Of a stretch of 33,590 nt of DNA, positions 12,263 to 20,623 are shown piece by piece. The notes beneath the pieces were generated by a model. That model was given only the letters and a program-made list of their open reading frames with translations, was not told the DNA's origin and did not search any database. How positions within the stretch are numbered: position 1 is the stretch's first letter; each line of letters begins with the position of its first letter. Source of the DNA: Actinomycetota bacterium (lineage in GTDB: Bacteria; Actinomycetota; CADDZG01; WHSQ01); the NCBI GenBank assembly GCA_013695465.1, contig JACDAL010000095.1, forward strand, positions 1 to 33,590, written 5' to 3'. Position numbers and translations under genes: made by a program.

Positions 12263-14014
12263 TCAACCGCCGGGCCTCGCACCCGGCCCCCGAGAAAGCT
12301 CACCTTTCGCCATCGCTCCCGGGTTCGTTATCGCCCCCTCGGAGGCCGACGCCACCGACAGCGCGTACTTGGCGAACACACCGCTTGTGTAGCGGGGCGC
12401 CGGTGGATTCCATTCCGCCAGACGCTTGCCGATCTCTTCGTCGGACAGGTTCACGCGCAGCTCTCTCGCGTCGACGTCAATCTCGACGATGTCACCTTCC
12501 TCGAGGGCCGCGATCGGACCCCCATGGGCCGCCTCCGGCGCAATGTGGCCGACCATCAAACCGTGCGTCGCGCCCGAGAAGCGCCCGTCGGTGATCAGCG
12601 CCACAGACTCGTCCAGGTCCTCACCGACGAGGGCCGCCGTCACCGCGAGCATCTCTCGCATTCCGGGGCCGCCGGCCGGACCCTCGTAACGGATCACGAC
12701 GACATCCCCGCGCACGATCAGACCCTTCTTGACCGCCTCGAAGCAGTCGTCCTCGGAGTCGAAGACGCGCGCCGGTCCGCGGTGAAAGAGCCGTTCGTGG
12801 CCGGCGAGCTTGACCACTGCTCCTCCGGGAGCGAGGTTGCCCCGCAGAATCGCCAGGCCTCCGCTTTTTTTGAGGGGCCGGTTGGCCGGTACCACAACTT
12901 CTTGGCCGGCCGTCTCACGCGCACCCGACGCGATCTCCCCGAGGGTGCGGCCGTCGACCGTGAGGGCGTCGGAATGTAGCAGTCCGGCGCGATCAAGCTC
13001 CCTCGCCACCAGCGCCATTCCGCCCGCTTCGTACATGTCCACGGCGGTGAACCTTCCACCCGGCTTGAGGTCGGCGACGATCGGCGTACGTGCGGCAATC
13101 ACGTCGAAGTCATCAATCGAGAGCTCGACCCCCAGCTCGCGTGCAATCGCCAACATATGGAGGACTCCGTTGGTCGAGCCTCCCGTCCCCGCCACTGATG
13201 TGATGGCGTTCTCCAATGCAGCACGCGTGATGATCTGGGACGGCCGTACGTTCTTGCGGGTGACCTCGACTGCGACCTTGCCCGCCTGTTCCGCGGCCGC
13301 CTTCTTGCCCGGGGCGGTCGCCGGAATGTCGCCTAGACCTGCCGGAGTGATGCCGAGAAACTCGACCGCAGTCGCCATCGTGTTTGCGGTGAAGTGCCCA
13401 CCGCAGGCGCCCGCGCCGGGACAGGCGACGTTCTCGAGCGAATGCAGATCCTCGGCAGAGAGCTTTCCGGCGGCGTGGCGGCCGACCGCCTCAAAGACGT
13501 CTTGGAGCGTCACATCTTTGCCCCGCCAGCGTCCCGGAGCGATCGAGCCCGAATAGAGCACGAAGCCCGGGATGTCGAGCCGGCAGAGGGCCATGACCGC
13601 TGCCGGAATGGTCTTGTCGCAACCCACGAGGCACACGAGCCCATCGAAGAGATGTCCGCGTGCGACGAGCTCGATCGAGTCCGCTATCACCTCCCGGCTG
13701 ATGAGCGAGGCGCGCATTCCCTCGGTCCCCATCGACACGCCGTCTGAGACCGAGATCGTGTTGAACTCCATCGGAGTCCCCCCGGCGACCCTTATCCCGG
13801 CCTTGACCTGAGCCGCCAGCTCCCGCTGGTTGAGGTTGCACGGCATGGTTTCGAGCCAGGTGGTGGACACGCCGATAATCGGCTTGGAGAGGTCCTGATC
13901 CGAAAAGCCGACCGCTTTGAGCATCGCTCGGGCCCCGGCCCGATCGGTCCCGTCCGTGAGCCGGCTGCTGATGCGCTTGGCGGGATCCGAGGGCTGCGAA
14001 TAAGGGTCGGTCAT
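12263..14014 (-). CDS. ilvD: Dihydroxy-acid dehydratase
   Basis: 583 aa; [78 protein letters not shown]. Confidence 0.97.
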
Positions 14015-14219
14015 GACTTGCTCCTTGGCTCAGTCGTGCATTGGGGGTCGGCCGGCAGGCCGACGATACAAGCAGAGCGCCTGCCCTCGTCGGCTGGTCC
14101 GGCGGAGCCGAAGCGCCCAAGTTGGGCGTGAGAGTACCCAAAACAGCACTCAGGAGCCCATCGTGAGGGAATGAGCAACCCGGGGAGCGCTAAGCCGGGT
14201 CCACAAGGCGGCTTCGAGT

Positions 14220-14248
14220 TTGACATCGTTCAACATGTGCCCCATACT
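14220..14248 (+). promoter_or_regulatory. Sigma70-type promoter for the ilvB operon
   Basis: TTGACA (14220-14225), 17-nt spacer, CATACT (14243-14248). Predicted start is about 3 nt upstream of the leader ATG. Confidence 0.7.
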
Positions 14249-14257
14249 TTGCCGCTA

Positions 14258-14347
14258 ATGGACCGACACGAACACCGCGCCCTCAGTCTAGGAGCCGCGC
14301 GCGCCCTGGGTCACCCCTTCCTGATCAACCTCGTACTTATTAGCTAG
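14258..14347 (+). CDS. ilvB-operon leader peptide, 29 codons, Leu/Ile/Val-rich C-terminus
   Basis: ATG GAC CGA CAC GAA CAC CGC GCC CTC AGT CTA GGA GCC GCG CGC GCC CTG GGT CAC CCC TTC CTG ATC AAC CTC GTA CTT ATT AGC TAG = MDRHEHRALSLGAARALGHPFLINLVLIS*. Below the ORF-track length cutoff. Confidence 0.75.
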   Translation: MDRHEHRALSLGAARALGHPFLINLVLIS

Positions 14348-14386
14348 CGCGCGCCCTTCGGCCTCCAAGGCCGCAGGAACGTGCGC

Positions 14387-14414
14387 AAACCCTCCGAGAA
14401 CCGGGGGGTTTTTT
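14387..14414 (+). terminator. Intrinsic terminator acting as attenuator
   Basis: AAACCCTCC-gagaacc-GGGGGGTTT-TTT, 9-bp stem including one U-G pair, then T-tract; 40 nt after the leader-peptide stop and upstream of ilvB. Confidence 0.75.
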
Positions 14415-14458
14415 GATGGCCGCAAACCCGTGAAGCAACGACCTAGCAAGGAGAAGCG

Positions 14459-14722
14459 ATGAAGGCAGAGATCTACGACCGCAACTACGTCGGAAGCGCT
14501 GAGTGGACCGCGCCCGGTGCGGTGAGGCTGGAGCTTGCCGACGAAACCAGAAGATCCTGGTTCGAGCGCTACTTTCAGACGGAGGATTCTTTTCTGACAG
14601 GGCTCCTGGGCTCGGAGGAGATCGCCGCCGAGCGGCGCGATAGCTCACAAGAGGCTTTCTCACGAGCGTTGTTCAACCTCGCTGCCTATTCCTACCGGGT
14701 CCGGGGCGGGGGGCGGCCGTGA
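14459..14722 (+). CDS. Small hypothetical protein (87 aa) between attenuator and ilvB
   Basis: AAGGAGaagcgATG start context; MKAEIYDRNYVGSAEWTAPGAVRLELADETRRSWFERYFQTEDSFLTGLLG... No family recognised. Confidence 0.7.
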   Translation: MKAEIYDRNYVGSAEWTAPGAVRLELADETRRSWFERYFQTEDSFLTGLLGSEEIAAERRDSSQEAFSRALFNLAAYSYRVRGGGRP

Positions 14723-14756
14723 TTCGAATCCGCGTTCAGGCTAAGAGGGGAAGACG

Positions 14757-16505
14757 ATGACAACAGGCGCTCAATCGCTCGTGCGCTCGCTGGAGAGCGC
14801 CGGATGCGAGGTGATTTTCGGGATCCCCGGAGGGGCGATCCTCCCCGCCTACGATCCGCTGCTGGAATCCTCCATCCGCCACATTCTCATGCGGCACGAG
14901 CAGGGGGCCGGGCATGCCGCTGAGGGCTACGCACATGTCACCGGCAAAGTCGGCGTGTGCATGGCGACGTCGGGGCCCGGCGCCACCAATTTGGTCACCC
15001 CGCTTGCGGATGCGTTCATGGACTCGGTGCCCGTGGTCGCGGTCACCGGCCAGGTGCCGCGCGCAGTCATCGGTAACGACGCCTTCCAGGAGGCCGACAT
15101 CTGCGGCATCACGCTGCCGATCACCAAGCACAACTACAAGGTGATGGATGTAGACGAGATTCCAGAGGTCATTGCGGAGGCATTTCACATCGCTTCGAGC
15201 GGCCGCCCCGGGCCCGTGTTGGTAGACATCCCCAAGGATGTGCTGCAGGCGCAGACCGTGTTCGAGTGGCCTCAGTCCATCAACCTGCCCGGCTACCGGC
15301 CCATCGCGCAACCCAACGGCCGCCAGATCAGGTCCGCAGCGCAACTCATCAACGAGTCTCGCCGTCCGATTCTCTACGTCGGCGGAGGGGTTCTGAAGGC
15401 CCGCGCAGCAAAAGAGCTCATGCACCTGGCGGAGGCGATCGGCGCGCCGGTTGTCACCACATTGATGGCGCGCGGCGCTTTTCCAGACAACCATCCCTTG
15501 TGCTTGGGGATGCCCGGCATGCATGGCTCTTATGCGGCGGTGACCGCAATGCAGAGATCAGATCTGCTCATCAACATCGGTGCCCGCTTCGACGACCGCG
15601 TCACCGGAAATCTCCAAGGGTTCGCTCCCGAGGCCAAGATTATCCATGCCGACATCGACCCGGCCGAGATTGGAAAGAATCGGGCTGCGGATGTGCCCAT
15701 CGTCGGGGACGCGCGCAGCGTGATCGTCGAGCTGACCAGGGCCGTGGTTGAGAAGATGTCGGTGGACGGGCGCCCCGATCTCAACGCATGGCACGAGCTG
15801 GTGTCGTCGTGGAGCCGGGACTATCCGATCGCCTACAAGCAGGAAGACGACGGGCCGATCAAGCCGCAGTTCGTCGTCGACGTCTTCGATCAAGCGCTTC
15901 AGGGTGAGGCAGTCGTCGTAACCGGGGTGGGGCAGCACCAGATGTGGGCCTCTCAGATCATGTCCTGCAACCGCCCCTACTCGTGGGTTACCTCGGGAGG
16001 GCTCGGAACGATGGGCTTCGCGGTCCCCGCGGCCCTCGGTGCCAAGGTGGGGCGCCCCGACGACCGTGTGGTCGCCATAGACGGCGACGGATGCTTTCAG
16101 ATGACCGCGCAGGAGCTTGCCACCGCGACCCTCAACCACACGCCGTTCATAGTCGCCATCTTGAACAACGCTCATCTGGGCATGGTCAGGCAGTGGCAGG
16201 AGCTTTTTTACGACGAGCGCTACTCGGAGGTCCACCTGCCCCAGGACGTGCCCGACTACGCCATGCTGGCCGAGGCCTATGGCGCGGTCGGGCTGCGGGC
16301 GACGAGGCCCGAAGAAGTGGAAACGATCGTCGACAAGGCCCTGGGCGTTGACGATCGCCCCTGCGTCATCGACTTTCGAGTTGACTCGACCGAGATGTGC
16401 TTCCCGATGATCCCGGCGGGTGCCAGCAACGACGAAATCATCCTCGGCCCTTCGTCTCCCGACGAGCCGGCCGCCGCCGAAGCCGATATCAGGAGAACGG
16501 CGTGA
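14757..16505 (+). CDS. ilvB: Acetolactate synthase large subunit
   Basis: 582 aa; [65 protein letters not shown]...[16 protein letters not shown]. Confidence 0.97.
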
Positions 16506-17038
16506 ACACCACGACACAGACTTTGTCCGTGCTGGTCGAGAACAAGCCCGGCGTGCTCGCTCGCATCTCGGGATTGTTTGCCCGGCGCGGTTTCAACATC
16601 GACTCGCTCGCGGTGGGGGAGACGGAAGATCCAGCGGTCTCGCGCATGACGATCGTTGTCTCCGTGGACAACAAACCTCTTGAACATGTCACCAAGCAGC
16701 TGCATAAGCTCATCAATGTGCTCCGCATCGCGGAGCTTCCGCACGACGCATCGGTCGAGCGTGAGCTCGCACTGATCAAGGTAGGCGCAGGTGCGGGCCG
16801 CCGCGCCGAGGTGCTGGAGATGGTCGAGATCTTCAGAGCCAAGGTGATCGATGTCGATCCCGAGTCCATCGTCGTGGAGGCTACGGGTACGCCCGAGAAG
16901 GTCGAGGCGCTCCTGCAGCTGCTGAATCCTTTCGGGATAATCGAGATGGCACGCACCGGCAGGGTCGCGCTGGGACGTGGCGCCAGGGGACTGCGGGCCG
17001 GTGTGCTCAGGCCCGTCCCGGTCTTCGAAGCCTCTTAG
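16502..17038 (+). CDS. ilvN: Acetolactate synthase small (regulatory) subunit
   Basis: GTG start overlapping the ilv[41 protein letters not shown] (ACT domain), [28 protein letters not shown]. Confidence 0.96.
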
Positions 17039-17082
17039 AAAGTCTCTAAAGGGAGGGCCGGAGCGCGGACGCCGGCGGAGCC

Positions 17083-17106
17083 GACGTCTAACGAGACGTC
17101 TAACGA
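17083..17106. repeat. Tandem duplication of a 12-bp unit
   Basis: GACGTCTAACGA|GACGTCTAACGA, exact, between ilvN and the ilvC ribosome-binding site. Confidence 0.9.
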
Positions 17107-17121
17107 AAGGGGAGCATCCAA

Positions 17122-18120
17122 ATGGCAGCTCGCATCTACTACGAGAACGACGCCCCGAGAGAAGCACTCGAAGGCAAACACGTCACGATCCTCGGCTACG
17201 GATCTCAGGGAAGGGCACACGCTCTCAACCTCTTCGATTCCGGTTTGGACGTGACGGTAGGGCTGCGCAAGGACTCGCCTTCGTGGTCTCGGGCGGAAGG
17301 TGACGGGCTTCGCGTTGCAAGCGTGCACGAAGCCTGTGCCGATGCCGATCTCGTGGCGATGCTGGTGCCAGATCAGCATCAGGCGGCGGTGTATCGCGAG
17401 GCCGTCGAGAACAACCTTAAATCGGGAGCGTCTTTGCTGTTCGCGCACGGTTTCAACATCCACTTCGGCCAGATTCGCCCGCCCGACTCCATCGATGTAT
17501 CGATGGTCGCCCCCAAGGCTCCGGGACCGCTGGTGCGCAGGACGTACGAGGAGAACAGCGGCACTCCTGCACTGGTGGCGATTCACCAGGACGCGACTGG
17601 GGAAGCTAAGTCCAGGGCGCTTGCCTACGCGCGCGGACTTGGCTGTGCGCGCGCAGGAGTACTCGAGACGACATTCGCGGAAGAGACTGAGACCGATCTA
17701 TTTGGCGAGCAGGCGGTGCTGTGCGGTGGGACGTCACGACTTATTCAGGCCGGCTTCGAGACTCTGGTCGAAGCCGGTTATCAGCCTGAGATCGCCTACT
17801 TCGAGTGTATGCACGAGCTCAAGTTGATCGTCGACCTGCTTTATGAAGGCGGCTTCGCCGGCATGCGCGACGCGATCTCGGATACCGCCGAATACGGGGA
17901 CCTAACGCGCGGCAAGGAGATCATCGGGCCCGAGGTTGAGGCTGCCATGAGGAAGACGCTTGAGGATGTGCGCTCCGGCGCCTTCGCTCGTGAGTGGGTC
18001 CTCGAGAACCGCGCCGGCACCCCGGTACTCGACGCCGAACGGCGCCGCCAGACACAGCACCCGATCGAAGAGGTCGGGGCTCGCCTCAGGGGGATGATGT
18101 CGTGGATGAATCGGAAGTAA
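17122..18120 (+). CDS. ilvC: Ketol-acid reductoisomerase
   Basis: 332 aa; [91 protein letters not shown]. Confidence 0.97.
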
Positions 18121-19724
18121 CCGCAGGCGATGTAGAGGAGGGCGATGTAGCAACCGGCGTAGCGTCTGCCGGATCGAGCTTTCACAGCCTCCGCATTTTC
18201 GATACGACTCTTAGAGACGGCGAGCAGTCACCCGGGATCTCTCTAAACTTGAGGGAAAAGGTCGAGATCGCCGAGCAACTTGCGCGTCTGGGAGTCGATG
18301 TCATCGAAGCAGGCTTTCCGATCTCCTCGGACGGCGAGACCGAAGCAGTGAAGGCGATCGCCTCGCAGATCAAGGGCCCGATCATAGCGGGGTTGGCGCG
18401 TGTCGATCCGCGCGATATAGAGCGGGCGGCAGAGGCCGTGGGCAGCGCCCAGAGAGCCCGTATCCACACATTCATCGCTACCAGCGAGATCCATATGAAG
18501 CACAAGTTGCGTATGTCTGCGGTCGAGGTCCTCGAGGCAGCGAGACTCGGTGTGGAGCGCGCGCGCCTTTACGTCGATGACGTCGAGTTCTCGTGCGAGG
18601 ACGCGACCCGTAGCGACCCGGCCTTCTTGGCGGAGGTCTACACAGCCGCCGCGCGCGCGGGCGCCACGACTCTGAACCTGCCCGACACTGTGGGCTATGC
18701 CCTTCCAGCTGAGTTCGCGGACCTGCTGAGTTATCTCGCCTCGGAGGTTTCCGATGAGGTGATGTGGAGCGTCCATACGCATGACGACCTCGGACTCGCC
18801 GTAGCCAATGCATTGGCGGGAGTGGGGGCCGGGGCTCGCCAGATCGAGGTCGCCGTCAACGGCATAGGAGAGCGGGCGGGGAACTGCTCGCTCGAGGAAG
18901 TCGTGATGGCACTGCGGACGCGCCGGACGGTGGGCGGTTTCGATACCAGTATCAACACCAGGGAGATCGCACGAACCTCGCGTCTCGTGTCGATGCTCAC
19001 CGGCTATGCGGTGCCGCCGAACAAGGCGATCGTCGGAGCCAACGCCTTTGCTCATGAGGCGGGGATCCACCAGCACGGCGTGATGGTCGAAAGGACTACA
19101 TACGAGATCATGGATCCGGTCGATGTCGGGCTCGAGGGCTCGCGCATCGTGCTGGGCAAGCATTCGGGCCGGCACGCGTTCACCAACGCGCTCGAAGAGA
19201 TGGGCTTCCATCTCGACAAGACGGAGATTCAAAAGGCGTTCGACCGTTTCAAGTCGCTCGCCGACCGCAAGATCCGGATCACGGATATCGACCTCGAGGC
19301 CATCGTGGCGGATGAGCTGTCATCCGATGCCGAAGAGTACGAGATGATCTCGATTCAGGTTGCAGGCGGAACGCACCTGTCGCCGACTGCCACGGTCCGG
19401 CTCCGGCGCTCGGAAGAGATCATCGATGAGTCGGCCATAGGTGACGGTATGATCGATGCAGCCTGTGGCGCGATCCAGCGAGCAACCAGTATCGACGCGC
19501 GGCTCGAGTCCTTCAATGTGTCGAGTGTCACCGGAGGCATCGACGCGCTGGGGGACGTGACCATCGTTCTGGTCTCCGGAGAAGCCCAGGACGGTCCCGT
19601 GCGAAGGGCCACGGGTCGCGGAGTATCAACCGATGTGGTCGAGGCCGCGGCGCGCGCCTACCTCTCGGCCGTCAACCGGCTGATCGCCCTGTCGCACCGA
19701 CAGATGGCGCCGCCGCGCAGTTGA
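18102..19724 (+). CDS. leuA: 2-isopropylmalate synthase with C-terminal regulatory domain
   Basis: Probable GTG start at 18102 overlapping the ilvC end; [109 protein letters not shown], plus a C-terminal LeuA-dimer-like region. Confidence 0.92.
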
Positions 19725-20623
19725 TGGACATCACCACGCGGCGGATCTCGGTGTTGCCCGGGGACGGCATCGGCCCGGAGGTAATCAATGTCGCGCTCGA
19801 CGAGCTTCCGGACCACTTCGAGATCGAGGCGCTGGACGTCGGGGCTGAGCGCTATCTGTCCACCGGGAAGCTTCTAGAGGATGAGGACCTCGACACGATA
19901 AGAGGGTCGGATGCCGTGCTGTTCGGCGCCATCGGGGATCCTCGGGTGCCCGATGGAGTGCTCGAGCGAGGTGTGCTGCTGAGGCTCCGCAAAGAGCTCG
20001 ACCTCTATGTCAATCTGCGGCCCTTCCCCGAGCTGGGCGTGACTTTCGTGCGCGAGAACACCGAAGGCCCCTACTCGGGCGTTGGGACCCGGGAGCCGGA
20101 CGCGGCGACAGAGACGAGCGTCAACACGAGGACGGCGATCGAGCGTTGCGCGCGCTACGCGTTCGAGCTCGCGGCGCGCGGCGGCAGCCACTTGACCTGG
20201 GTTCATAAGACGAATGTTCTCGTCCACGCAGGTTCGTTGTGGTCGGAGGTCGTGAGAGAGGTTTCACAGGACTTTCCCGAGGTTTCGCTGAGCTATCAGC
20301 ACGCCGATGCGGCCGCGTATCTACTCGTGATGGAGCCGGAGCGTTTCGATGTCGTGTTGACCGACAACCTCTTCGGAGACCTGCTCTCTGACCTGGCTGC
20401 CGGGTTATCGGGAGGGCTGGGAAGCGCTGCGAGTGCCAACCTTCATCCCGAGCTCGCCACCAGACCCAGCAGATGCGTCGGCTTATTCGAGCCGGTCCAT
20501 GGCTCGGCCCCCGACATCGCAGGAATGGGCAGGGCCGACCCTACCGCTGCGGTTCGAGCCGCGCAGATGATGATCGCAGCTTTGGACAAGGAGCCGGTGA
20601 CGATATCAAGGGAGGGCCGGTGA
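19724..20623 (+). CDS. leuB: 3-isopropylmalate dehydrogenase, compact variant
   Basis: RRISVLPGDGIGPEVINVAL, LRKELDLYVNLRP, VRENTEGPYSG, VHKTNVL, LTDNLFGDLLSDLAAGL, FEPVHGSAPDIAGMGRADPTAAV. The ATG overlaps the leuA stop. Confidence 0.9.
   Translation: MDITTRRISVLPGDGIGPEVINVALDELPDHFEIEALDVGAERYLSTGKLLEDEDLDTIRGSDAVLFGAIGDPRVPDGVLERGVLLRLRKELDLYVNLRPFPELGVTFVRENTEGPYSGVGTREPDAATETSVNTRTAIERCARYAFELAARGGSHLTWVHKTNVLVHAGSLWSEVVREVSQDFPEVSLSYQHADAAAYLLVMEPERFDVVLTDNLFGDLLSDLAAGLSGGLGSAASANLHPELATRPSRCVGLFEPVHGSAPDIAGMGRADPTAAVRAAQMMIAALDKEPVTISREGR

Follow-up and report, generated by a model that had tools for sequence, protein, structure and literature searches.

The region upstream of the ilv genes in the window, i.e., the whole 33,590-nt stretch of DNA analysed, is in all likelihood a leader-peptide attenuator for branched-chain amino acids (BCAA) that operates by the steps proposed below. 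Since numerous Actinomycetota carry the device and its sensor codons vary to suit the pathway under control, it very probably switches the genes on when BCAA are short. The assignment of an attenuator of an ordinary kind to the window is made with high confidence, this kind being already known from ilvB leaders in Corynebacterium, Mycobacterium, and Streptomyces. Unusual are its non-overlapping hairpins and the existence of codon-swapping copies. The source genome comprises 2.55 Mb in 186 contigs, and its relatives are recorded as Actinomycetota. The following features of the window are considered:

12263..14014, minus strand: ilvD, a divergent neighbour that leaves no upstream gene for the terminator to serve
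14220..14248, plus strand: sigma-70-type promoter TTGACA-17-CATACT, from reading of the sequence and a site scan
14258..14347, plus strand: leader peptide ORF MDRHEHRALSLGAARALGHPFLINLVLIS with stop codon, plausibly near-leaderless, its ATG 9 nt past the -10 hexamer
14330..14347, plus strand: sensor codons CTC GTA CTT ATT (Leu-Val-Leu-Ile), one spacer codon and TAG, the best-conserved block
14347..14386, plus strand: stop-codon hairpin (SH) with outer stem 14347-14353/14380-14386 and inner CGGCC/GGCCG hairpin, from folding and covariation
14387..14414, plus strand: intrinsic terminator hairpin (T) AAACCCTCCG/CGGGGGGTTT with U-tract, adjoining SH directly, from folding and covariation
14459..14722, plus strand: small conserved uncharacterised protein of 87 aa, first gene of the regulated operon
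14757..16505, plus strand: ilvB, acetolactate synthase large subunit, with three TPP-enzyme domains
16505..20623, plus strand: presumed remainder of the operon, ilvN, ilvC, leuA, and leuB, with names deduced from the ORF sequences

Direct reading bears out the promoter and leader that the sequence-only reading had described. The -35 hexamer TTGACA (14220-14225) and the -10 hexamer CATACT (14243-14248) are separated by a 17 nt spacer, and in a scan of positions 13500-15000 this was the sole sigma-70-like site found (0.1 expected). The 29-codon leader ORF had been placed about 10 nt past the -10 hexamer; the exact gap is 9 nt. The ORF opens with ATG at 14258, comprises 29 sense codons and closes with TAG at 14345-14347. 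Its final eight sense codons are CTG ATC AAC CTC GTA CTT ATT AGC, six of which encode Leu, Ile or Val as claimed. Taken alone, this tail has a binomial P of approximately 0.0024 at a local BCAA codon frequency of 22.5%. A near-leaderless start of the leader ORF is plausible, since the 9-nt gap between -10 hexamer and ATG is repeated in several unrelated copies of the element and ilvB of C. glutamicum is leaderless (PMC11857589).

The terminator with T-tract reported 39 nt past the leader stop was recovered at 14387-14414, where AAACCCTCCG-AGAAC-CGGGGGGTTT occupies 14387-14411 and the U-tract extends to 14414. The 5' arm of SH has as its first nucleotide the last base of the leader's TAG stop, i.e., the G at 14347, and since SH ends at 14386 and T starts at 14387, both hairpins are contiguous with a gap of 0. 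The proposed pairing of GCGCGC with GTGCGC forms a real hairpin. Lacking any overlap with the terminator, this hairpin does not qualify as an antiterminator of the standard type. Segment 14342-14416 folds with z = -4.7 (none of 200 shuffles equally stable), and the fold of the full 14250-14460 region is unremarkable (z = -1.2). The terminator pattern by itself is near background, without excess over shuffled sequences. Due to the weakness of the window's terminator and codon tail when each is taken alone, the case rests on conservation across genomes.

Conservation of BCAA codons, stop, hairpin, and terminator before ilvB, which had been named as a check, was found among family members and in the wider phylum; none of the refuting conditions that concern the sequence spoke against the earlier reading. 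Within the family, the sensor/stop block CTCGTACTTATTNNCTAG is recurrent in 10 genomes with identical anatomy. With at most one mismatch, CTCGTACTTATTANCTAG occurs in 10 out of 16 family genomes and in three genomes of other families, and all 13 matching sites share the same anatomy; the reversed-pattern control gave 1 match in 398 genomes. According to the family alignment, the LVLI-x-stop block is almost invariant in its nucleotides and leader codons further upstream are variable. The element is present in family genomes having an ilvB orthologue and absent at E<=0.001 in five of the six that lack one; a weak match (E=0.005) was obtained for G006, which has no ilvB orthologue. In case of G001, ilvD, the element, and the small ORF are present and ilvB was not found.

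Across the phylum, covariance model R1, built from six family members with the leader codons included, gave matches at E<=1 in 78 out of 98 sources; where the locus contained ilvB, the match was mostly situated directly upstream of this gene. With the broader model R2 and a cut-off of E<=0.001, 96 of the 398 Actinomycetota genomes sampled were found to carry the element, again mostly before ilvB. One R2 match that lacks BCAA codons and belongs to an ABC-F gene (L221) is taken as a false positive, and for two others (L184 and L185) BCAA genes were not matched. Stem covariation, likewise suggested earlier as a check, is strong for SH and T. In an alignment of 65 copies, which was itself fitted to the SH/T structure, both-sided changes occur in all 17 modelled pairs and 95.4% of the cells are paired; none of 500 shuffles was as good and slid controls came nowhere near. 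Due to a wrong stem register between TAGCGCGC and TAGGCGCGC rows in MAFFT, the covariance model was built on a single register. A check anchored at the stop codon agrees, with a complementarity of 8.4 nt between each 5' arm and its own downstream sequence, compared to 6.7 nt for swapped partners and 5.0 nt for shuffled ones. Unconstrained folds yielded exactly two hairpins in 79 out of 79 copies. The start of the first was offset by 0-4 nt relative to the stop codon's initial base, and the gap between the two hairpins was 0-6 nt, without any overlap. As the copy set was chosen with a model built on both hairpins and the codons, and includes near-duplicate loci, these figures characterise the class and should not be taken as independent tests.

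The choice of codons in the leaders argues for a ribosome-read sensor. Among 78 loci, GTA accounts for 60% of the Val codons in leader tails versus 2.8% in the downstream ilvB (odds ratio 53), a figure that is somewhat inflated because R1 contains GTA, although most sampled loci were found by R1. CTT and ATT are likewise enriched in the tails of these 78 loci, and GTA is situated at codon -4 in 60 of the 78 leaders. In the last six codons, leaders of leuA/leuS contain 24 Leu and no Ile/Val codons, and those of the cimA/leuB type contain 3 Leu and 44 Ile/Val codons (P=5.5e-16), where the genes behind non-ilvB copies were named by NCBIfam models or by similarity to LeuB. Codons matched in this way to the gene are what a charged-tRNA sensor for the end product predicts. 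That the leader is read by a ribosome and senses charged BCAA-tRNAs is therefore strongly supported, as judged from sequence comparison, and the earlier reading as ribosome-mediated BCAA attenuation gains support from conservation, covariation, rare codon choice, and gene-matched codon identity.

Copies before leuA and leuS were observed at L187 (same site as L150), L198, L202, L212, L215, L200, and L222; Leu is the sole branched-chain codon near their stop, e.g., MSQNLLLT. Copies before cimA (citramalate synthase) or a leuB-type dehydrogenase were observed at L188, L190, L192, L204, L214, and L219, and at L195, L197, L206, L208, L210, L211, and L220, with Ile/Val-rich leaders, e.g., IIIIR. 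These leaders suggest that the leuB-type copies belong to an isoleucine route.

With respect to the genes controlled, the element is indeed placed before the ilv genes as had been claimed, but the operon starts with the unannotated 87-aa gene rather than with ilvB. This ORF is kept between attenuator and ilvB with 48-66% identity within the family and 29-41% in other families. Its product has no Pfam or NCBIfam match and a confident AlphaFold model (pLDDT 88), for which the fold search returned no PDB relative at E<=0.001. The ilvN, ilvC, leuA, and leuB ORFs of the window served as tblastn queries.

Besides the parts, their conservation, the codon bias, and the gene-matched codons, sequence comparison documents a spacing that would permit a ribosome to switch SH. 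We infer transcription start, translation, and direction of the response as follows. RNA polymerase would start a short distance before the leader ORF, and translation would begin with a ribosome loading almost at the 5' end of the RNA. With ample charged Leu-, Val-, and Ile-tRNA, the ribosome would reach TAG and cover the 5' arm of SH, and the terminator would end transcription. In case of BCAA shortage, it would stall at CTC-GTA-CTT-ATT with its front edge ending at the stop codon, SH would form, and more polymerases would read through. For modelling, the distance between the P-site codon's first base and the front edge of the ribosome was assumed to be 16 nt. On this basis, a ribosome at the stop is predicted to mask SH, and one that has stalled with Val codon -4 in its A site to leave SH free; the mean SH probabilities are 0.00 and 0.96, respectively. 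In these models hairpin formation depends on ribosome position. Moving the ribosome between these positions switches SH, but at equilibrium T is formed at approximately 0.97 in the stalled and the at-stop state alike. Due to this and to the lack of overlap between SH and T, textbook mutually exclusive antitermination is unsupported by equilibrium folding.

How SH weakens a terminator that it does not overlap may be a matter of coaxial or boundary competition, or of kinetics. Pre-pairing of the terminator 5' arm before its 3' arm exists was rejected as an antitermination route, since it has the wrong sign (0.14 stalled versus 0.37 at stop), and pairing of the SH interior with the terminator 3' arm was rejected as an antiterminator since many copies show no excess of such complementarity and the excess is marginal overall (mean z -0.25, s.e. 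0.13). The terminator's first base is also open to pairing within SH in some family members, which makes for a boundary overlap of about one base. SH may lower termination by adjacency or kinetics, in analogy to M. tuberculosis, in which induction is lost when the sensor codons are replaced (PMC13236596). It is tempting to speculate, although we hold this at somewhat below an even chance, that the copies form a modular Actinomycetota attenuator class before ilvB, leuA, leuS, cimA, and leuB, in which a stop-codon-anchored SH has no sequence in common with T and read-through is achieved by adjacency or kinetics and not by mutually exclusive pairing.

Of the competing explanations, the most probable is that energy models of single strands overlook a mutually exclusive antiterminator of the classical type, e.g., one between the SH loop and the terminator 3' arm; this is a sub-variant of BCAA attenuation and not an alternative to it. 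The published models for M. tuberculosis (PMC13236596) as well as for Corynebacterium (PMC10272879, PMC11857589) include overlap or mutual exclusion, and the slight complementarity excess mentioned above as well as the terminator base available to SH in several family members point in the same direction. Since this excess is marginal and missing from many copies, and since 1-6 nt separate the hairpins in many copies, we regard such pairing as unlikely. An opposite sign, by which SH would protect the terminator and starvation would raise termination, agrees with the terminator 5' arm being freer once SH has formed, but for biosynthetic genes this would be the reverse of the physiologically expected response, and it conflicts with the induction observed in M. 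tuberculosis (PMC13236596) and Corynebacterium (PMC10272879), which makes it highly improbable.

A further reading holds the terminator to be constitutive or otherwise controlled, by a protein or small ligand on SH, with the leader peptide as a bystander. SH and T are compatible in every fold, and codon changes in S. coelicolor are described as without effect in PMC1262725. Gene-matched codon switching and the enrichment of the rare GTA would be purposeless, however, unless the codons are read, and in 79 of 79 copies the start of SH coincides with the stop codon's first base or is at most 4 nt away; this reading is therefore given a small probability. A BCAA-rich tail that lies beside an unrelated terminator by chance would be in agreement with a terminator pattern near background and a codon-tail P of about 0.002, but is already refuted by phylum-wide conservation and covariation and has a negligible probability. 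BCAA leader-peptide attenuation as outlined above remains the favoured explanation.

The enterobacterial trp, leu, and ilvGMEDA attenuators combine a leader rich in the end-product amino acid with a terminator, ribosome position being the signal. The window resembles them in its end-product-codon leader peptide, its terminator, and the proposed signal, but unlike in these systems, mutually exclusive pairing of the 2:3 versus 3:4 type could not be detected. With Rfam 15, no family reached the gathering score in the window or in 16 related loci; Phe_leader, the best sub-threshold family (27.6 of 55 bits), and RNAI were rejected as matches of hairpin shape alone. The stop-codon-anchored tandem-hairpin layout and its use before cimA and leuB were not found in Rfam or the literature searched, and that literature likewise yielded no cimA leader and no class extending over the phylum, with most subscription journals outside its reach.

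According to Seliverstov et al. 2005 (PMC1262725), BCAA leader ORFs with terminators lie upstream of ilvB in Corynebacterium, Mycobacterium, and Streptomyces, leuS leader attenuators occur in Streptomyces, and codon substitutions in the S. coelicolor ilvB leader were without effect; its leucine section has no mention of cimA or leuB. The window shares with these ilvB leaders a short BCAA-rich ORF and an intrinsic terminator upstream of an actinobacterial ilvB, with the small conserved ORF in between. It differs by a separate stop-codon hairpin that intervenes between leader ORF and terminator, whereas the 2005 ORFs are described as overlapping the terminator and the exact mode is called unclear. 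Since SH and T are separable in sequence, the antitermination mode, unclear for actinobacterial ilvB since 2005, is directly testable.

For M. tuberculosis ilvB1NC, a short terminated transcript was observed, mutually exclusive hairpins were proposed, and an LVVI-to-AAAA change in the ilvB1 leader abolishes induction (PMC13236596). The window is similar in having BCAA sensor codons including GUA (there LVVI) and a hairpin proposed to be ribosome-controlled that is followed by a terminator; the leader stop is UGA in M. tuberculosis and TAG in the window. The leader ORF of the window stops at the hairpin base, but in an LVVI-type leader among the genomes compared (L024) the ORF does not end after the sensor codons and enters the first hairpin; the Streptomyces-like MRTRILVLGKRVG leader (L025) also continues beyond the sensor codons.

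The window also resembles the ilvB-II or C. glutamicum attenuator, which has a leaderless, BCAA-rich uORF with the control codons CUU and GUA (PMC10272879, PMC11857589). Roles of terminator and codons were shown for the “fast” attenuator of C. glutamicum, whose antiterminator and terminator hairpins are adjacent with a 3-nt overlap (PMC11857589), compared to an overlap of 0 in the window; the boundary overlap of about one base in some family members resembles this trinucleotide overlap. For ilvB-II, loop-terminator pairing was proposed, and the sensor codons apparently pair within P1, as read from C. ulcerans oligonucleotides (PMC10272879), whereas those of the window lie outside SH. In the ilvB-II motif, P1 spans the uORF with its BCAA codons and P2 is the terminator; the element of the window lacks such a P1.

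With the copies described here, BCAA attenuation is no longer confined to a few model genera but covers much of a mostly uncultured phylum, and their Leu-only, Ile/Val, and mixed leaders represent a natural experiment on what each copy senses. Most family relatives additionally carry a short, conserved hairpin CCYC-N-GTCGCCGRGG in the 5' UTR just past the promoter (L112, L117, L118, L119, L120, and L121), approximately 90-130 nt before the sensor codons and with a closing pair that varies between C-G, U-A, and U-G; it is absent from the window. The 5' motif CARYGTCGCCGRGGT, conserved in family relatives, was rejected as a long-range antiterminator because the window lacks it, and its matches away from ilv leaders resemble coding sequence. 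In case of G002, two copies of the element (L125 and L003/L178) are located on contigs C73 and C119, each with ilvB sequence, which suggests a duplicated ilv operon.
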